This document shows positions 5,199 through 20,483 of a stretch of 20,573 nt of DNA, piece by piece. A program made the translations under genes and the position numbers. Source of the stretch: a virus. Position 1 is the first letter of the stretch; every line of letters starts with the position of its first letter. Under the pieces are notes generated by a model, which was given only the letters and a program-made list of their open reading frames with translations, had not been told where the DNA came from and searched no databases. The stretch spans positions 1 through 20,573 of IMG/VR virus record IMGVR_UViG_3300038701_001826, one strand, 5' to 3'.

Positions 5199-6109
5199 CA
5201 GATAAGGCCCAGTGTGTTGTAGGGGAGGGATTTGTAGATTTCGAATTCCAGATAGTGCGGGTCAGAACCATCTGGCAAACGGGTGCCGTTCTCTGCTAGC
5301 AACACTCGGCTGGTGACCTTCTCTTTGTTGTCGTCCACCGCGTGCATGATGTAGGAACGCGTTTCTTCGGTTGGGTCTTCTTCACCCTCGCCGGGAACGA
5401 TGACTTGGTAGATCACCTTTTCGTAAAAGCCTTCATGCCTGACTCGTGCATACCAGGCTTTCTTCGGGGTCGTGTTGTACGGGACGCGAAACTGGATTTC
5501 GGCGGTGATGTCCCACCAGCCTTCGTGCCCTGCGTCCCATCGTTGCTTCGCGTTGTATTTCACCATCCGGCCAGTTCCCGCCGGGTAGCTTTGGAAAGTG
5601 TCGGAGTTGACGCTGTGTCGATACTCGCTCGTCAGGTGCGGATTAAAGAACCGAAACGGCCTTTTCACTTTCAGTATGTTGTCCGCTCGCTTCATCGTCG
5701 CACCGTCGATCGGTTCGCCGTTGGCGGTGACGATCGCGTTTCCGTTCACGTCTTCTTCGATGCCCTGATCTTCTTCGGTGTCAGTCCACTCGATTTCGGG
5801 CGGCTGTAACTCGGCACGGGCTTGCGGTCCCGCTGGTCCGAATTCACCTTCGTATGTCAACGATGCAATCCAAAGAATCGGGCTGACTCGTTGAAACTGC
5901 CTGTCCACGCAAAAGACGGTTGGCATGTCCGGGTAGTTTGTGTTCCGCTGCGGAACGTCCGGCGCAAGTGACACGTCAACTTTGCTTGTGTCTGGATCGC
6001 AGAGAACTTGGTACGCCTCTTGAATCCGAACCTTCGAACGAAGACCACGTTCCGACTTCGCGTCAAATGCGTCTCGCGACCACATGCGGTTTGATTCTAG
6101 GACTGCCAT
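5198..6109 (-). CDS. Tail-tip/baseplate-region protein of unknown function
   Basis: This 303-residue protein directly follows the tape measure, the place where siphophages encode the distal tail protein. It is mainly beta by pattern with many charged and aromatic residues, for example RPFRFFNPHLTSEYRHSVNS and WWDITAEIQFRVPYN (about two-thirds along), and it contains the strand SPILWIASLTYEGEF near residue 85. No signal peptide, membrane segment or catalytic motif is visible. It overlaps the tape measure stop and the next start by one base each (TGATG). The position supports a tail-tip or baseplate structural role; I do not recognise the family. Confidence 0.6.
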   Translation of the reverse strand: MAVLESNRMWSRDAFDAKSERGLRSKVRIQEAYQVLCDPDTSKVDVSLAPDVPQRNTNYPDMPTVFCVDRQFQRVSPILWIASLTYEGEFGPAGPQARAELQPPEIEWTDTEEDQGIEEDVNGNAIVTANGEPIDGATMKRADNILKVKRPFRFFNPHLTSEYRHSVNSDTFQSYPAGTGRMVKYNAKQRWDAGHEGWWDITAEIQFRVPYNTTPKKAWYARVRHEGFYEKVIYQVIVPGEGEEDPTEETRSYIMHAVDDNKEKVTSRVLLAENGTRLPDGSDPHYLEFEIYKSLPYNTLGLI

Positions 6110-8851: not shown

Positions 8852-9781
8852 TCAAGTTGCGTCGGTGAATGTCAGGGAAACTTCTTCGTCCTTGGTCGTT
8901 CCGTTCTTGGCACAGAACAGTTCCATGTCGTCGGTTAACACGTCTTCGCGATCACCCTCTTTGCTGCTGGTGATTTGTGCCTTCGGTGCACCAAGTGTGA
9001 ACGTTGAATCGCTCGCACCCGTGGCAACGAGCGAGAACGCATACTCGTTGGCCGCGATCCAATCGCCAAAACGATCTTCGGTGGCAACCAACTGCGCTTC
9101 GGGGTCCAACGTCAGCTTCGGCATGCGGTCCTTGATGACCGCGTACTTGTAGCCGGACGCAGTTGAAGGGCATTGCAAGCGCGTGATCTCATTGCCCGCG
9201 TCAAACTCAACGTTTGAAACGCACTGAGCGACTGAGTTGTAGGTCAGCGTTGCTTCGCCAAACCTTGCTGCCGTGTCGTCAGGATGGGTTGGGGTGAGAA
9301 TCGTCGCGTCGATCGGTTCTTGCCAGACGCCTTGGAACTCCCATTCAATCGTGCAAAGGCTGGCGTTCGGGAACTTCATCTTGAAATTCCCGGCAGCACC
9401 GGCGAGGAACTTTTTGCGACCGTCGTAAACTCCCAGCGTCACAGTCTTGACGTTGGTCCCAGGTGCTTCGCTGCGAGGCGTGAACACTTGCGACGACTCG
9501 ACGTAGCCGCAAGCGGGGAGCAGTGTCGATGCCCACGCTGGCAACCCTGTGCCACTCCAAGCCAAGTCAGTTTTGAACGAGAGCGAACCTGGATAAGGGC
9601 CGGGAACGCCTGTCTGCCTACCGAAACTGCCACCCGATTCCCGCATCTGCACGTCGATCTCGGCATCGATCTCGACATCGTAAGCGTTGTATGCACCTTC
9701 GGTGTTGGTCAGCGCGACTGCGGTGCCAGGAGTCGTTTCGATCTTTGCGGCGAAGACTCGCAGTTTTTTAAGAATTGGCAT
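8852..9781 (-). CDS. Major tail tube protein
   Basis: The 309-residue product is beta-rich and begins MPILKKLRVFAAKIETTPGT, with the 'xxE-TT-PGTAVAL' opening typical of phage tail tube subunits, which stack into the hollow tail. Other tube-like stretches are YDVEIDAEIDVQMRESGGSF and PGSLSFKTDLAWSGTG, then a conserved-looking inner strand GAAGNFKMKFPNASLCTIEW and FGEATLTYNS. It sits just before the tail chaperone pair, as lambda V precedes G/GT. A ribosome site (AAGGAAAG, about five bases before the ATG) is present. The start at 9781 overlaps the stop of the preceding gene by 14 bases. Fold and role are supported by position and pattern; the exact family is not certain. Confidence 0.78.
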   Translation of the reverse strand: MPILKKLRVFAAKIETTPGTAVALTNTEGAYNAYDVEIDAEIDVQMRESGGSFGRQTGVPGPYPGSLSFKTDLAWSGTGLPAWASTLLPACGYVESSQVFTPRSEAPGTNVKTVTLGVYDGRKKFLAGAAGNFKMKFPNASLCTIEWEFQGVWQEPIDATILTPTHPDDTAARFGEATLTYNSVAQCVSNVEFDAGNEITRLQCPSTASGYKYAVIKDRMPKLTLDPEAQLVATEDRFGDWIAANEYAFSLVATGASDSTFTLGAPKAQITSSKEGDREDVLTDDMELFCAKNGTTKDEEVSLTFTDAT

Positions 9782-10052
9782 CGCTCTTTCCTTCTTTGGG
9801 TTGGCTTTTGACTTCGTCGGTGAACTGAACTTTGTCGCCGAGCTTCGAACGGATGGACGCTTTGAGCGATTCCAGGCACTTGCCTTCCGCGTTGATCGTC
9901 ACGGATGCTTTGCCACCGCTGCTGACAACCTGAACGCCACGGACCGCCTTGGTTGGCTTGTCGGTGACGATCGAAGGCGTGTAGGTGAAACCGTTGGCCG
10001 CAGTGATGGACTGGACCGTGGCGACTTCTGCGGAAGGTGTTTTGGTGGACAT
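9768..10052 (-). CDS. Small protein of unknown function in tail module (94 aa)
   Basis: The start is the ATG at 10052, overlapping the stop of the gpZ-like gene by one base (TGATG); a longer upstream extension of the frame is excluded because it would cover that gene. The product begins MSTKTPSAEVATVQSITAAN, contains beta-strand stretches (AVRGVQVVSSGGKASVTINA) and a short helix (LESLKASIRSKL), and ends in a charged, Ser/Lys-rich tail that looks disordered. It lies between the gpZ-like and tail tube genes. There are no catalytic or metal motifs. It could be a minor tail or tube-associated factor, but no function can be assigned. Confidence 0.65.
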   Translation of the reverse strand: MSTKTPSAEVATVQSITAANGFTYTPSIVTDKPTKAVRGVQVVSSGGKASVTINAEGKCLESLKASIRSKLGDKVQFTDEVKSQPKEGKSDANS

Positions 10053-10624
10053 CAAATCAGCCCTTGTTTTTTGAGAGTGTTGAAGCGAACTCGTCGCTGG
10101 ACTTGTTTGGCAAGTTCGGTTGCGCCGTCGTTGATCGTTCGCGGTCGCATGTTCTGTTTTTCGTAAGCACCACCAGGCGATGCTCCGTGCATCCGGACGA
10201 TCGGGTAACGAGCAGGACCGCGGCGGATGTAGGCATGCCCGCCAAGTCGTGCTGCTGGGCGTCCAGGTTTCGGACCCATGAACCCGCCACGAACCGTCTT
10301 GCGTCCAGTGCGTTTGCTGATCTTGAAACTGACACCGGCGCGGGTCTGGCGGACGCCGAACGCTTTGAGCGAAAGCCGTTTGGTTTTGTCGAGCCGAACC
10401 AATGCACTGATTTGCGACCGGTTCGCTTTCTTGCGGACCTTCAAAATCGGTTTGAGGTCTTTCGCTTTGACCGTCAGCTCTTCGCGGACTTGCCGCCCCA
10501 TCCCTGTCCGAACCTTCTTTGCCGTCGCGTTGACAGCAATCATCAGCTCGCGAGGCAATTGCTTGCTTGTTCCTTTGAGAGCCTGTTCCAGCCCTTTGAT
10601 TCCGATCACTTCCAAATCGATCAT
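10052..10624 (-). CDS. Minor tail protein, lambda gpZ-like (tail completion)
   Basis: This 190-residue, strongly basic protein matches the pattern of the prophage minor tail protein Z family (Pfam PF06763): an N-terminal helical region, then SLKAFGVRQTRAGVSFKI (85-102), a basic loop with GGFMGPKPGRPAARLGGHAYI (113-132) and RYPIVRMHGASP (139-150). Lambda gpZ acts late in tail assembly, at the head-proximal end, so that the finished tail gives infectious particles. It begins three bases after the stop of the tail-terminator-like gene and ends by overlapping the 94-residue gene. Length agrees with the family (about 190). This is the most secure of the small tail-completion assignments. Confidence 0.8.
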   Translation of the reverse strand: MIDLEVIGIKGLEQALKGTSKQLPRELMIAVNATAKKVRTGMGRQVREELTVKAKDLKPILKVRKKANRSQISALVRLDKTKRLSLKAFGVRQTRAGVSFKISKRTGRKTVRGGFMGPKPGRPAARLGGHAYIRRGPARYPIVRMHGASPGGAYEKQNMRPRTINDGATELAKQVQRRVRFNTLKKQGLI

Positions 10625-10627
10625 CTG

Positions 10628-11128
10628 TCACCGCCTCACAAATGGATCGATTTCGGACGTGCGGTATTGCACGGTCAGCACGACTTGTGCCCCGTCATGG
10701 CCCGGTGCATCCACTGTGGTGGACGTTCCGAACGACGCGTTGAAAGCGTTGCCGTCGAAAGTGTGCCATCCCGACGCATCGTTGTTCGCGAGTGCTTTCC
10801 GAATCGCGGCGATCATCTGCGTGTCAGTGACGTTGGTGTTGAGCACACCCACTTCACCCTTCACGTCCAATTGGCTTGCGTAACCGGTGATCTCAAACTG
10901 CACGTCGTAAGCGACCGCCGGCGGATTGCCTGGGTAGTTGTGGTCTGGATTCTCGGTTTCGGTTGTTTGATTGATGATGATCCGCCGCGGCTTGGCGTCC
11001 CATGCGTTCGTATCACGGTTGACCATCACGACAGCCGACGCGTCGAACTCGTATCCATTGGCGATCGTGATGCTTTGCAATCGTGCAAGCACCTCGTCGG
11101 CAATCTTTTCGAGGATCGGTTTCGCCAT
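10628..11128 (-). CDS. Probable tail terminator-like protein
   Basis: The ATG at 11128 overlaps the preceding stop as TGATG and is preferred over a start 33 bases further upstream. The 166-residue product begins MAKPILEKIADEVLARLQSI, an amphipathic helix, followed by beta strands (VVMVNRDTNAW, RRIIINQ, AVAYDVQFEITGYA), a second helix (DTQMIAAIRKALAN), and a last strand pair (QVVLTVQYRTSEIDPF). A helix-strand order of this kind, ending in a strand that rejoins the sheet, is typical of tail terminators (lambda gpU type), which cap the tail tube and mate with the head. The neighbours (stopper-like before, gpZ-like after) agree. Direct family similarity was not tested. Confidence 0.6.
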   Translation of the reverse strand: MAKPILEKIADEVLARLQSITIANGYEFDASAVVMVNRDTNAWDAKPRRIIINQTTETENPDHNYPGNPPAVAYDVQFEITGYASQLDVKGEVGVLNTNVTDTQMIAAIRKALANNDASGWHTFDGNAFNASFGTSTTVDAPGHDGAQVVLTVQYRTSEIDPFVRR

Positions 11129-12363: not shown

Positions 12364-14010
12364 TTACGCCACGTTTCGCACGGCGTATCGCCAGTTTTTG
12401 ACGGCGGTTGCAACGCGACCTTCCAACGAGATGTAAGTGGTCTTGTTGCCTGGGTCATACCAGCGTTCGCGACGGCCGGCGGTTCCGAATCCGTTGAAGT
12501 AGGCTCGAACAACCGTTGCCGTGTTGAGACGGGTTGGGTTTCGCAACCCATACCAGGTCGTATCGGATGCCGATCGCAATTCGCTTTCGGTGATCACGCC
12601 GACATCGCCGCGGTACAGGCCAACGTTTGCTGTCGTTGCCGCGGCCTTGGGCTCGAGACCCGCCAGCGGGAAGAACGTCCGCCGAGCTTCCTGAGCACGA
12701 GCACCGGTTGGCACGAAGCATGTGTTGAGCGTTCCGCGAACACGTTTGCCAGTGTTGATGCCGCCGATGTCAGCGTATTTGACTTCCATTGCAGCCCATT
12801 CCGAATCGCTCGGAGCGCCACCGCTGGTCTTGTCGTTGTCGTTGGCTGCTGGGTTCGTTCCCGTTCCGGTGTCAGGACGGTTGGCGAACAGCGAATAGCC
12901 ATCCAGCAAGGTTTCGTTCGAAGTGAATCGATCGATGACCAAGCGGTTCTGCGTGACCTGCCAAGCTTCCGCCAAGCCAATCATGCCTTCCGCGAACGCG
13001 TTCAGATCGTCGTTGGCGATCATCACGGGAGTCCAGCCGAACTTGTTGCCGAATCGACGCAGGAACACGTAGGACAGAACCTCTTCTTCCATCCCAAGTT
13101 CCTTGAACTGTTCAGCGTCCTGCAGTTCGTCCAACTCTTCGACAACGCCCTTGTTGACCATCAAGCCGGGTTTGAAGTCGTTCAGGCCGCCGGGAAGCAA
13201 AGCGGAAACTTTGCCATAGCTGTAGTCTTCATCCAGTTCGATCGAGTCCAGGAACTTGTTGGCAAGCCCTGACAAGATGTTCGGGAAGTCACCGGGGCGA
13301 GCGTTTGGGATGCCCGAGTTTTGCACATAGCGACGGTCTTCGCTGGTGCTGAAAAACGTCTGACGTCCGGTCCCGCCCATCTGCATCGCTTCTTCTGCGA
13401 TCAGCTCGCGTGAACCGTACATGTCGACTTGCCGGCCAGCGATTTGCAACGCTTGGCCAGCGATCGCCCACAAAGGACGATTGGACAGTGCCGCGGCTCC
13501 GTCCGAGATTTGCATCTGCGGATTGTCGCTGCTGCGATAAACCATCGCGTCAATCGCGTCTTGGGCGAACTGGTCCGAACCCTCAGCGGTCACGTTGGCT
13601 CGCGAAGTTGGCACAGACGATTCCTTCTTGGAAATGGTTTCGTTCCACGCTTGGATTGCGGCGTTGGTGTTCTGTCCCGCTTCGAAAGCGTCCATCACCA
13701 TCGCGTCGCTGATGAAAGCCTCGCTGGTGACGCTGTTGAGCAACGCGGCGGACGCTCGCAGGTCTTGCAGCCGGGCTTCGCCTTGCTCGGTCTTGTGAGC
13801 TTCGGCAACGTTCGACGCTGGTGCGGGATCCGGCGCGGGAGGCGGATTCGACTTGCCCTGCAACGCTTCCAGCATGCCGGATTCGTTGTCGGGAACATCG
13901 ATCCCCTTGCCGCTGCAGAATGCACTGACGACGGCGTTGCAGGTTTCGTCGGTTGCTTCCATCGAAGCGATCATGCCCATTGCAAACAGTTGGGCGCGTA
14001 CTTTGTCCAT
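12364..14010 (-). CDS. Nested in-frame scaffold-capsid product from internal start (Nu3-like arrangement)
   Basis: Inside the fusion gene, the ATG of residue 312 (14010-14008; MDKVRAQLFAMGM) is preceded by GAGGT seven bases upstream, one of the best ribosome sites in the window. Translation from here would give 548 residues comprising the scaffold-like and capsid parts without the protease. Lambda uses the same device to make the scaffold Nu3 from within gene C. It would let the particle hold many capsid subunits and few protease copies. Shown by sequence: start, spacing and frame. That it is used is inference. Confidence 0.6.
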   Translation of the reverse strand: MDKVRAQLFAMGMIASMEATDETCNAVVSAFCSGKGIDVPDNESGMLEALQGKSNPPPAPDPAPASNVAEAHKTEQGEARLQDLRASAALLNSVTSEAFISDAMVMDAFEAGQNTNAAIQAWNETISKKESSVPTSRANVTAEGSDQFAQDAIDAMVYRSSDNPQMQISDGAAALSNRPLWAIAGQALQIAGRQVDMYGSRELIAEEAMQMGGTGRQTFFSTSEDRRYVQNSGIPNARPGDFPNILSGLANKFLDSIELDEDYSYGKVSALLPGGLNDFKPGLMVNKGVVEELDELQDAEQFKELGMEEEVLSYVFLRRFGNKFGWTPVMIANDDLNAFAEGMIGLAEAWQVTQNRLVIDRFTSNETLLDGYSLFANRPDTGTGTNPAANDNDKTSGGAPSDSEWAAMEVKYADIGGINTGKRVRGTLNTCFVPTGARAQEARRTFFPLAGLEPKAAATTANVGLYRGDVGVITESELRSASDTTWYGLRNPTRLNTATVVRAYFNGFGTAGRRERWYDPGNKTTYISLEGRVATAVKNWRYAVRNVA

Positions 14011-14943
14011 TTTCTTGACCTCGGAATTGTTGACCGGCGAAGTTGCCGGAGAAGTGTTGGCAAAAGCCGAAACTGGGCGATCGCCACCCAACTGAGAACT
14101 GATTGCTGACATCGCTTCGTTGAAACCTGAGACGATCGAATCGACCATCCCTTTCTTCACCGCCACATCTGCACGGAATGCGTCACCCTTTCCAAAGTCG
14201 GAAATGACGACCTGAGAATCGACGCCTCTGTATCGGGCAACGTCTTGAATGAAGCCGCTGCCGTAGGAGTCGACGAACTCTTGAATTTGTTTTTTCGCTT
14301 CGTCAGTCAGGGGCTCGGAATCGTTGCCGACTCCCTTGGCTGGCGAATCTGTGTTGGTGAATACGGTCGCGGTCACGCCGTACTCTTTGAGCATGCCGCT
14401 GATTTCCTGGTGCTTGTAGATCGTGCCGATCGAACCCCAAAGCGAATCCGCTGTGCCGCTGCGATGCGAGCAAGCCGAAGCGATGTAGTAGCAAGCCGAC
14501 CCGCAAATGCCTTGCGAGTAGAAGTAGACCGGCTTTTGATCGCGGGCCGCAAAGATCATGTCGGCAACACGCTTGCAGCCAATCGCGGATCCACCAGGCG
14601 AATCGCCGTAGATCATCACGCCTTTGACTTCTGGGTTGCCGATGACTTTAGCGAACTCGGTTTCGAACTGTTGGTAGGACGATGCGAACCCCATGCGGAC
14701 CATGATGTCCGTGGTGTCTCGCAAAACTCCCGTCATCGACAAGACAGCAACCCCGTCGATGATCTTGGTTTGTGACTCGCTTTCGCCACCGAACGACATG
14801 GCGTTTTCAAGCGAATCCATGTCGCCGCTCTCGATCGCTTGCGAAATCGAAGCGAACGCGGAAGGAACGATAAACCAAGGCTGGCCATCGTTGATGCAGG
14901 CTTGGAGCTGTCCCAGCTTTCGCTTTTTGGTCAGAGGAATCAT
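12364..14943 (-). CDS. Prohead protease / scaffold / major capsid fusion protein
   Basis: The ATG at 14943 overlaps the preceding stop as ATGA and gives 859 residues. Residues about 60-280 are an S49 (SppA/ClpP-like, lambda gpC type) protease: GVMIYGDSPGGSA, then GICGSACYYIASA with likely nucleophile S149, and SPAKGVGNDSEPLT with likely general base K203. Residues 312-500 are Ala/Glu/Met-rich with a Pro-rich linker and look like a scaffold. From about 510 the sequence is a major capsid protein; MIANDDLNAFAEGMIGLAEA (641-660) and LLDGYSLFANRPD match the Mu gpT family pattern. Protease-capsid fusions of this sort are known in some phages. The protease should process the prohead; where it cuts cannot be read. 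Confidence 0.88.
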   Translation of the reverse strand: MIPLTKKRKLGQLQACINDGQPWFIVPSAFASISQAIESGDMDSLENAMSFGGESESQTKIIDGVAVLSMTGVLRDTTDIMVRMGFASSYQQFETEFAKVIGNPEVKGVMIYGDSPGGSAIGCKRVADMIFAARDQKPVYFYSQGICGSACYYIASACSHRSGTADSLWGSIGTIYKHQEISGMLKEYGVTATVFTNTDSPAKGVGNDSEPLTDEAKKQIQEFVDSYGSGFIQDVARYRGVDSQVVISDFGKGDAFRADVAVKKGMVDSIVSGFNEAMSAISSQLGGDRPVSAFANTSPATSPVNNSEVKKMDKVRAQLFAMGMIASMEATDETCNAVVSAFCSGKGIDVPDNESGMLEALQGKSNPPPAPDPAPASNVAEAHKTEQGEARLQDLRASAALLNSVTSEAFISDAMVMDAFEAGQNTNAAIQAWNETISKKESSVPTSRANVTAEGSDQFAQDAIDAMVYRSSDNPQMQISDGAAALSNRPLWAIAGQALQIAGRQVDMYGSRELIAEEAMQMGGTGRQTFFSTSEDRRYVQNSGIPNARPGDFPNILSGLANKFLDSIELDEDYSYGKVSALLPGGLNDFKPGLMVNKGVVEELDELQDAEQFKELGMEEEVLSYVFLRRFGNKFGWTPVMIANDDLNAFAEGMIGLAEAWQVTQNRLVIDRFTSNETLLDGYSLFANRPDTGTGTNPAANDNDKTSGGAPSDSEWAAMEVKYADIGGINTGKRVRGTLNTCFVPTGARAQEARRTFFPLAGLEPKAAATTANVGLYRGDVGVITESELRSASDTTWYGLRNPTRLNTATVVRAYFNGFGTAGRRERWYDPGNKTTYISLEGRVATAVKNWRYAVRNVA
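14018..14022 (-). promoter_or_regulatory. Internal Shine-Dalgarno for the scaffold-capsid start
   Basis: GAGGT on the minus strand lies seven bases before an in-frame ATG within the protease-capsid gene, between the protease and scaffold portions. It decides the internal start. Confidence 0.6.
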
Positions 14944-15293
14944 TCGCTGGTTACTCCCAGAGCTTCGAGCACTTGGGCTTCGGACTTGTCGCCGAGACCG
15001 TCCACCGCATCGCTGAGGTCGCCGCCGCCGTTGATCCAATCACGCAACGCGTCAGCCGAAGCGAACTGGTCGCCTTCTGCATCGTTTAGCAGTTTGGTGA
15101 TCCGAGTAGACAAGCCAAGCGAATCGAACTTGCCAGAATCGCTCGGGGTCGGTGTCGACTGTTCGTCAACCTCGATCGTCACGGTTGGAACTGGGTGTAG
15201 ACCGCCGGCGTTGTGCTTTCCGCAGCCTTTGACCGTGATCGTCTTGCCGCCGATTTCGGTTGACTCGCCAACCTTCAAAGTGATTTCTTTCAT
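14940..15293 (-). CDS. Small acidic protein between portal and protease-capsid genes
   Basis: This 117-residue protein starts at 15293 with ATGA overlap to the portal stop and ends with ATGA overlap to the protease-capsid start. It begins with a beta-hairpin and a Cys/His-bearing turn (EITLKVGESTEIGGKTITVK, then GCGKHNAGG), has a Thr/Pro/Ser-rich linker, and ends in an acidic helical domain (STRITKLLNDAEGDQFASAD, VDGLGDKSEAQVLEALGV). No family is recognised. Its place suggests a head factor produced with portal and protease. Tight coupling on both sides makes it very likely to be a real gene. Confidence 0.7.
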   Translation of the reverse strand: MKEITLKVGESTEIGGKTITVKGCGKHNAGGLHPVPTVTIEVDEQSTPTPSDSGKFDSLGLSTRITKLLNDAEGDQFASADALRDWINGGGDLSDAVDGLGDKSEAQVLEALGVTSE

Positions 15294-18082: not shown

Positions 18083-20299
18083 CTAACGGGCTCCAATTTC
18101 TTGGGGTTGTGAATGCGATTGGCGACCTGGTCGCCCGCCGCGTGGTGGCTTCTTTGCAACGAGATTCCCGCGGAACCAACGTTCGATTGACTTGGCGACC
18201 AAGGCCATCGCGACCGAGTCCCACCAGTGATCACGCACAAACCGCGGCTTGCGGCTTCGCGTGCCACGGGTCAATTGCTGCTTCAATTGTTCGGCTCCCA
18301 CTTTGATGTGCTCGCCAAACGCTTTGTGATTCGAAAATATCCCGTCAGTCGGCTCGAATAATTCAAACCGGTCAACGCTGTCTTCGGGCAGAAGGAAAAG
18401 CTCTTCGACCAATAGATGCCAGTGACTGGCGTTCCAGATCACTTCGGTGCAACTCCGCTTGCCGTCATCGGTCTCGCCATTCCCTCGGTTCATGTGCCAG
18501 TTGTCGCCAACAATGCACTTGTCTGATGGTTCGGGTGTCCGATAGTTCGGCTGGCCTTTGGCCGGAAGCCAACGTCGAAGCCCACGTTCCATGCAGAATT
18601 GTTCGACTGGCTGAGTCACCCATGTCTTTACTGTACCGTCTTCCGTCCAGTTCCCAACCCACCCTTTGTCAACAAGGCAAAGGTCTGTCGTTCGCGGGGT
18701 TCCGTGCTCATCACAAATTGGGTTTTCCTCCCAGTCGTCCGCAAGCTTGTGCAACGCACCAAGAATCAAATCCTCTGCCTGCTCAACAGTCGTTTCGGAC
18801 GACCCATGCGTCTGGATGTCATAGTCCGGAATGCGATGGTTGCGGTGTTTCTCAACCGAGAGGGTTGCATGGTGCAATTCGATTTTGCGAACGTCGATAG
18901 CGCGAGTGATCATGTCGGAAGTTGAGTCCACAATCTTTCGCTGATACTCTCCGGCACAGCTCGACACCACGTAGGGCGAAACCTTGTTCTCGAAGAAGTC
19001 TTCTTTCTTCGGCGGATCGTTCTGGTATTCGGTGTCGAACGCCTCCCGCGATCCGTCCGCAATAAAGTTGAAACTGTTCTGCAGGTTGGAAACCTCTTTC
19101 TGGCTTCCGTCTTCGAGCAAGTCAGCTTCGAAGTTGTACGGGTTGGAAACCTCCGCACCTTCGTCCATCGCTTCGCGGTTCGCGAGGTAGAAGTTGTGGG
19201 CGTCTCTTGCGTTCGGGTCTCCGTCCTGCATCCCCTTTTGCCGCATCTGGACGTACTTGTCCCACATGGCGATGTTCGTGGGCCAAGTCTTGATCGCCGC
19301 TTTTCTTGACCCGCCCCATGCTGGTTTTTGCTTGGGATCGGAATACTTGTACGCCGCGGCCTTGGTGCTCGTGATCGTACAGAGGTAATACTGCCCAAGC
19401 TTTCGCGACTGGCCTTTGAGCCCGGCAATCGTCTTCTCGATCGCTTCTTCAATCTTGCCAGCAACCACGCCATCCTCGGCCGCCAAAGAATCGCGAGAAT
19501 CAAGGTCGTCCAGCATGAGACAATCGGGCCGCATATCGTAAACGTTGCAGCCTTGCAATTCGTCCGACGACCAACCAATTGCCTTGATGATTGGCCCGAT
19601 GGCTTCCTCATCTTCCCAAGTCGGCAAGATGAAGTGACCTTCCGCGGTGCCCCATTCGACGTGGACGCTTCGCCCGCCATTGGCTGTGACGTTCTTCGCC
19701 CGGCTGGGCCAAGGGTCAACGTACTGGGCAACGTAGCATTCAAGCGGAAAGTCTCGTGAGAACGGGGTCTGTTTCTTCGCGGCCAGCTTGCGTTTGAGCG
19801 AGCCAGTGATTCCTTTCGCCTTGCCTCCCGTCGCAGCAATCACGAGCGGGAAACGCACCTGGCGATAGAGTGCGTATTTGAGCATCAGGTATTTGACGAT
19901 CGAACTTTTGCCGTCGCCGCGGGGTGCTGCCTTGCATTTCTTCAATCCGTATTTCAGCACCTCGCCACAGTCGTGAATGATTTCGAGTTGGTCATCGGTG
20001 AACGGGTTGTAGAACACATCGCCGAAGTAGTACCGCAACCAAGCCGCGTCATCCTCGCCGAGTTGCCTCCGACGATCAGGATCCTCCACATCGGGAATGA
20101 TCAGGTCGCGTGCTGATGCTCGGCGATCAGCGGCACGGCCCTTCTGTTTTTCGTTCTCAGTCTGCGGCCGACTCGATAGCGACCGGCGAGCAATCTCCCG
20201 GTGCTCCGTCGGCAATTCCTGCAACACTGCCTCTCGCTCTTGCGGACTCAAGGAGTGCAAGAAGTCGATTTCCTTCGGACTTAGCTTCCAGGTGCTCAT
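18083..20299 (-). CDS. terL: Terminase large subunit
   Basis: The ATG at 20299 gives 738 residues; a TTG at 20326 would add nine, and the true start is uncertain. Near residue 125 is a deviant Walker A loop, APRGDGKSS, and at 259-267 the Walker B strand, DCLMLDDLD, showing the packaging ATPase. The C-terminal third should hold the RNase H-like nuclease, with candidate acidic residues in LCLVDKGWVG and in HWWDSVAMAL near the end. The protein cuts concatemeric DNA and pumps it into the prohead through the portal. The N-terminus, LSPKEIDFLHSLSPQE, resembles other terminase N-termini. It overlaps the preceding small gene by 143 bases in a different frame, far more than other junctions here. It is slightly long for the family. 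Confidence 0.88.
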   Translation of the reverse strand: MSTWKLSPKEIDFLHSLSPQEREAVLQELPTEHREIARRSLSSRPQTENEKQKGRAADRRASARDLIIPDVEDPDRRRQLGEDDAAWLRYYFGDVFYNPFTDDQLEIIHDCGEVLKYGLKKCKAAPRGDGKSSIVKYLMLKYALYRQVRFPLVIAATGGKAKGITGSLKRKLAAKKQTPFSRDFPLECYVAQYVDPWPSRAKNVTANGGRSVHVEWGTAEGHFILPTWEDEEAIGPIIKAIGWSSDELQGCNVYDMRPDCLMLDDLDSRDSLAAEDGVVAGKIEEAIEKTIAGLKGQSRKLGQYYLCTITSTKAAAYKYSDPKQKPAWGGSRKAAIKTWPTNIAMWDKYVQMRQKGMQDGDPNARDAHNFYLANREAMDEGAEVSNPYNFEADLLEDGSQKEVSNLQNSFNFIADGSREAFDTEYQNDPPKKEDFFENKVSPYVVSSCAGEYQRKIVDSTSDMITRAIDVRKIELHHATLSVEKHRNHRIPDYDIQTHGSSETTVEQAEDLILGALHKLADDWEENPICDEHGTPRTTDLCLVDKGWVGNWTEDGTVKTWVTQPVEQFCMERGLRRWLPAKGQPNYRTPEPSDKCIVGDNWHMNRGNGETDDGKRSCTEVIWNASHWHLLVEELFLLPEDSVDRFELFEPTDGIFSNHKAFGEHIKVGAEQLKQQLTRGTRSRKPRFVRDHWWDSVAMALVAKSIERWFRGNLVAKKPPRGGRPGRQSHSQPQEIGAR

Positions 20300-20483
20300 C
20301 AGATTGGTTTTGCGCCTCCGCCTCAATCAATGCACGGAACGCTGTGACCTTGTCGCGTGGTGATGCTTCGCAGTCTTTCATCACATCGCACATGCATTGG
20401 ATCCCCGCCTGCATCTGTTCCTCGGAGATGTTCCAACGCTTTTTCACAGCCATCGCAAATAGCCTCAGATCCTTTCGATTCAT
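20157..20483 (-). CDS. Small terminase-like protein (terminase-adjacent, 108 aa)
   Basis: The product begins MNRKDLRLFAMAVKKRWNIS, a basic helix, followed by EEQMQAGIQCMCDVMKDCEA and DKVTAFRALIEAEAQN, then a tail that overlaps the large terminase frame. Helix-rich small proteins with a 'basic helix, ...SPRDKVTAFRALIEAE' order precede terminase large subunits in several phages and act as the DNA-recognition subunit. The codon pattern of the first 70 residues looks like a true gene; the last 40, lying over the terminase N-terminus, could be less constrained. No clear ribosome site is seen before ATG 20483. The small-subunit role is inferred from position, size and helical make-up. Confidence 0.6.
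   Translation of the reverse strand: MNRKDLRLFAMAVKKRWNISEEQMQAGIQCMCDVMKDCEASPRDKVTAFRALIEAEAQNQSDEHLEAKSEGNRLLALLESARARGSVAGIADGAPGDCSPVAIESAAD

Follow-up and report, generated by a model that had tools for sequence, protein, structure and literature searches.

A fusion gene in IMG/VR virus record IMGVR_UViG_3300038701_001826 very probably holds two nested, co-terminal genes in one frame, as judged from comparison with its homologues. The longer would encode a minor, protease-delivering subunit, and the shorter an internally started scaffold-capsid protein. The analysed DNA, here called the window, is a 20,573-base virus contig (positions 1 to 20,573 of the record); the coordinates below refer to it, and the fusion gene lies on its minus strand. 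A first-pass annotation had noted GAGGT, seven bases, and an in-frame ATG at residue 312 of the fusion protein, and this signal is present exactly as described at 14022-14008 on the minus strand, where the reverse-strand reading is TTCCGAGGTCAAGAAA, then ATG GAC. The frame from codon 312 gives the expected protease-free product of 548 residues, and this product carries the capsid, as Phage_capsid_4 lies within the nested frame. The ATG had been placed at the junction of protease and scaffold, and the domain boundaries agree. The peptidase S49 match ends at residue 279, the linker covers residues 286-310, and the first confident helix of the AlphaFold model begins at residue 313, so that M312 has the disordered linker on one side and the first helix of the scaffold on the other. 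The internal ATG therefore falls exactly at the linker/scaffold boundary.

We infer that both products are made, with the short form in excess, and that they co-assemble and are cleaved. Ribosomes initiating at 14943 would produce an 859-amino-acid (aa) protease-scaffold-capsid protein, and those initiating at the internal Shine-Dalgarno (SD) sequence and ATG (14022-14008) would produce a 548-aa scaffold-capsid protein. As in HK97, the bulk shell protein, here the short form, would bear a scaffold domain. Because the scaffold and capsid parts are common to both products, full-length subunits would be incorporated into the procapsid as a minority component, and the S49 protease would thus be carried inside. 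There it would cut the linker and the scaffold before packaging.

Conservation of the junction start signal

The junction start is conserved in distant relatives of the window gene. Homologues were found by a search with the capsid segment followed by an alignment search of viral contigs. These searches used capsid and protease patterns and were independent of the start site. Scans of genome contigs gave no relatives, and a direct tblastn search of cultured phages with the nested product gave no matches, so that more distant homologues served as bridges. The set of S49 fusions comprises 16 distinct genes, window included, with identities from about 60% down to 27%. The first-pass annotation had suggested looking for the SD and ATG in close homologues; all 16 fusions keep the start codon (15 ATG, one GTG), and each has an SD-like stretch upstream of it. 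Among these stretches are AAAGGAGG, AAAGGGAGG, AAGGAGA, GAGGAG, CGGAGA, AGAGG, AGGAGC, and AAAGGA, and the weakest is CGGAA in the gene of locus L028. The GTG, in L014, encodes valine within the long frame, yet it is a bacterial start codon. In the alignment almost nothing is conserved in residues 300-312 apart from the start codon.

Codon 312 is the sole alignment column at which start codon and SD are both conserved. No column has a stronger mean anti-SD energy than the junction (-7.8), a rank that it shares with a neighbouring column, and the SD strength summed over the 16 genes is far from that of a synonymous recoding null (z = -8.7). Arginines within six codons upstream of the start are encoded by AGA or AGG in 12 of 14 cases, compared to 29 of 818 elsewhere. 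Averaged over 15 genes, 96% of the segments compared within a gene are more structured than the RNA around the junction start, and in the window gene the internal start has the least structured RNA of all. Comparison of the sequences thus places the signal far beyond chance across the homologues. What the sequences show directly is how the gene is built, that the start codon is conserved along with an SD and lies in unstructured RNA, and that the catalytic residues are retained.

The junction start is not peculiar to this phage; it looks general for protease-capsid fusions. A wider set of 44 fusion genes has S49, ClpP-like, or S78-type proteases and includes Gifsy-2 and small actinophages. The ClpP-like fusions are those of mEp460, Fels-1, Gifsy-2, mEp213, F10, Ostro, LESphi2, Psul1, Sc-Yong805-1, and Va_PF430-3, and the S78-type fusions include RcOceanus, MinM1, yong2, PY223, ep3, VP882, Mano, and others. 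Protease type was assigned by Pfam for part of this set and by similarity for the remainder; a Pfam check of S1 gave no protease family. The capsid parts of the cultured-phage fusions belong to Phage_capsid_4 or to the HK97 family PF05065. The SD core lies in codon register 0, 1, and 2 in 18, 12, and 14 of the 44 genes, respectively, and therefore it is a nucleotide signal that is conserved and not a peptide motif.

All internal ATGs of these genes were scanned, each being scored as SD energy plus 0.6 times the local folding energy. The junction ATG ranked first in 40 of the 44 genes; the exceptions were L014 (GTG, not scanned), MinM1, and mEp213 and Sc-Yong805-1 (junction rank 2). The predicted internal start is codon 160 of the fusion in Arthrobacter phage Decurro, codon 214 in Rhodobacter phage RcOceanus, and codon 188 in mEp460. 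The median score of the best ATG was 2.45 in the fusions versus -4.10 in 44 other long open reading frames (ORFs) of the same loci (P = 7e-14). Pfam boundaries were available for 20 genes, and in 17 of them an ATG preceded by an SD of -5 or better lies no more than 65 codons beyond the protease. Within the fusions, the annotated feature tables examined show no nested gene on the same strand. It is likely that the protease-scaffold-capsid fusions of tailed phages, with S49, ClpP-like, or S78-type proteases and either of two capsid families, generally consist of two nested genes, in which a conserved internal start missed by present annotations makes the scaffold-capsid protein. This would be the common way of obtaining much more capsid than protease out of a single frame.

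Alternative explanations

Several points weigh against the nested-gene interpretation. The window SD is modest, with P = 0.26 against the synonymous-codon null for the window gene alone. SDs of -5 kcal/mol or better also occur at codons 266 and 618 of the window gene and at 28 of the 279 internal ATGs in homologous genes, a background of about 10%. On its SD alone the window site would be a guess, and easily wrong; since the SD of a single gene is not significant, the case rests on comparison across homologues. Weak SDs (-3.5 to -3.9) are found in L028, VaPF430, and Mano. Many of the 44 genes are related and hence are not 44 independent events, and the score formula was chosen a single time, when the junction sites were already known, and was neither tuned nor varied. 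The capsid part is poorly modelled by AlphaFold in both the full-length and the nested protein. Finally, the internal start does not have a significantly stronger SD than the full-length one (P = 0.13).

The last point bears on the proposal in the first-pass annotation that the short product is made in excess. A stronger SD was tested as the source of such an excess and found no support. However, the RNA is less structured at the internal start than at the full-length start (P = 0.002), and ATG is found at 43 of 44 internal sites versus 33 of 43 full-length ones.

The best surviving alternative, although improbable, is that the gene encodes a polyprotein only. All capsid subunits would then be full length, the protease would cut itself off in the linker, and the internal methionine and SD would be incidental. 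The S49 active-site residues are conserved and the linker appears cleavable, and self-cleavage within the linker probably does occur; it could coexist with internal initiation. However, if the gene encoded a polyprotein only, nothing would explain why a poorly conserved linker retains a start codon, an SD whatever its register, AGA/AGG arginines, and unstructured RNA, and such sites are rare in other long genes. The GTG of L014 fits a start codon and not a required methionine. With the start codon conserved, self-cleavage in the linker is therefore no explanation by itself.

Less probable still is that the site is a functionless relic of a former scaffold-capsid gene boundary, left when that gene was fused to the protease gene by loss of a stop codon. 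In the Faecalibacterium phage FP_Epona the protease and capsid genes are adjacent and separate, and the capsid gene has its own SD, which speaks in favour of this history. A relic is expected to decay, yet the start codon is kept in all 16 homologues down to 27% identity while the surrounding linker can barely be aligned, and the SDs sit in shifted registers. An origin by stop-codon loss could in any case be compatible with functional initiation at the site.

Very unlikely, and already largely refuted, is a constraint on the protein, in which the methionine and its flanks are conserved because the scaffold helix starts there and the SD arises incidentally from lysine, arginine, and glutamate codons: the helix does begin at the site, and the synonymous-codon null is not significant individually for the window gene or for L014, L017, L026, L027, L028, L029, and L030, but the summed deviation over 16 genes, the clustering of rare AGA/AGG arginines at the site, and the valine codon of L014 speak against it. 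Amino acid conservation as the cause was rejected on the synonymous null together with the occurrence of the SD core in three registers.

Gene organization and neighbouring genes

The features of the fusion gene are collected in Table 1. The protease part matches lambda C (pairwise E 4e-24), and Ser149 and Lys203 are conserved in the homologues. A match to phrog_53 (head maturation protease) covers residues 20-452 (E 1.2e-60), and both the predicted structure and the profile of the protease part match SppA. Helices, mostly confident, continue to about residue 440, and the model suggests that residues 313 to about 440 form a helical N-terminal domain ahead of the capsid domain, with a putative scaffold role. 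The only matches of the nested product in a profile search of solved structures were doubtful ones to phosducin. Two NCBIfam models of protease/major capsid fusions scored under their curated cut-offs for the window protein (NF045541, 100.4 bits with a cut-off of 525; NF045540, 54.7 bits with a cut-off of 475), and these matches mainly cover the scaffold-capsid part.

Table 1. Coordinates of the fusion gene, its parts, and the internal start signal in the window
Feature	Position	Strand	Remarks
Full-length protease-scaffold-capsid fusion gene	12364..14943	-	859 codons, 859 aa; fusion kept in homologues
Peptidase S49 domain	14107..14544	-	residues 134-279 by Pfam
Catalytic-type Ser149	14499-14497	-	opposite lambda C Ser166 in alignment
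Catalytic-type Lys203	14337-14335	-	opposite lambda C Lys218 in alignment
Linker, residues 286-310	14014..14088	-	predicted disordered, predicted local distance difference test (pLDDT) <50, few conserved columns
Internal SD, GAGGT	14022-14018	-	seven bases ahead of ATG
Spacer, CAAGAAA	14017-14011	-	between GAGGT and internal ATG
Internal in-frame ATG, codon 312	14010-14008	-	start codon conserved in homologues
Nested ORF, predicted protease-free scaffold-capsid protein, 548 aa	12364..14010	-	stop common with full-length gene
Helical scaffold-like (delta-domain/Nu3-like) part	13624..14010	-	approximately residues 312-440; phrog_53 match, AlphaFold
Capsid domain Phage_capsid_4 (PF25209)	12373..13302	-	residues 548-857; 52.6 bits, cut-off 27

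Two observations concern the scaffold part in the homologues. In L006 and L008 the fusion genes are near-identical until early in the scaffold part, and beyond that point they have clearly diverged, as if recombination had occurred slightly downstream of the nested start. L030 has, from position 5913, a tandem duplication (IKMGLIAADANDTAQAA / QKMGILADVNDTAARA) at the start of the scaffold part.

A portal gene lies upstream of the fusion gene. Between them is a 117-aa ORF (14940-15293, minus strand) without a Pfam or PHROG family match, and the full-length ATG of the fusion gene (14943-14941) shares an ATGA overlap with its stop codon. L002 has no counterpart of this ORF, and the portal ORF there extends to the fusion gene. 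A 287-aa ORF (9768-10631, minus strand) overlaps a gene that matches phrog_27 (10052-10624); an internal ATG with an SD at its codon 194 (10052) suggests that the real gene encodes about 94 aa. At E 0.01, neither Pfam nor NCBIfam nor PHROG gave a match for the 747-aa ORF in the position of the large terminase (18083-20326, minus strand). Neither Rfam families nor tRNAs were found in the window.

Related systems and implications

The first-pass annotation compared the gene to lambda C/Nu3, and the principle is the same. The S49 proteases are homologous with their catalytic residues aligned, and both genes have an SD and in-frame ATG just past the protease and a nested product that shares the stop codon. 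The scan used for the fusion genes chooses codon 309 of lambda C, where CAGGAGGGCGA-ATG is found, compared to GAGGTCAAGAAA-ATG at codon 312 in the window. In contrast to the window gene, the nested product of lambda is the scaffold alone, and the capsid protein E is encoded by a separate gene. Because its nested product carries the capsid, the window gene is not strictly a member of the lambda C/Nu3 type. The lambda record J02459 annotates nu3 from codon 239 of C, without an SD there (the two starts, at 1633 and 1843 of L003, correspond to 5132 and 5342 of J02459). The scan and CAGGAGGGCGA indicate a start at codon 309 rather than at 239. The nu3 start has presumably been revised likewise in later literature.

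Other phages have part of the same plan. In Gifsy-2 a single gene encodes the protease, a scaffold-like middle part, and the capsid, with an SD-ATG at codon 221 directly after the protease, but the protease is ClpP-like (S14) and not S49. Effantin et al. are said to have described this "tripartite capsid gene" in 2010. Herpesvirus UL26/UL26.5 and phage Mu I/Z make nested, co-terminal protease-scaffold and scaffold-only products. Their nested products do not include the capsid protein, and UL26.5 comes from its own transcript. In HK97 and D3 a scaffold (delta) domain stands at the N-terminus of the capsid protein, as in the predicted nested product, while the protease is a separate upstream gene. 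HK97 Prohead 1 contains 415 capsid subunits and about 60 proteases (PMC12749128), and by analogy this is the kind of ratio that a nested start could yield. Protease-scaffold-capsid fusions are described for small actinophages of Clusters EE, AN, AX, FE, CW, DM, and RRH1 in passages of two papers (PMC7302621, PMC5513430), and the passages searched make no mention of an internal start. RRH1, Decurro, and McGonagall have a junction SD-ATG, but the actinophage protease is not S49; the RRH1 depositors named it a caudovirus prohead protease family protein. The FP_Epona genes (906-3042 of L042), in which the SD of the capsid gene is strong, are a natural unfused counterpart of the fusion genes.

Tripartite fusions and the nested scaffold of lambda are thus already known. 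A conserved nested start that carries the capsid was undescribed in the literature searched; the paper on the Gifsy-2 tripartite gene lay outside that search and may have anticipated it. A fused protease-capsid gene poses a ratio problem, in that heads need hundreds of capsid subunits and few proteases, and the conserved nested start would answer it. One gene would join the nested scaffold of lambda and the scaffold-capsid fusion of HK97. By implication, in many phages with fused genes the major capsid protein may be annotated with the wrong N-terminus, which would bear on proteomics, structure modelling, and capsid engineering.
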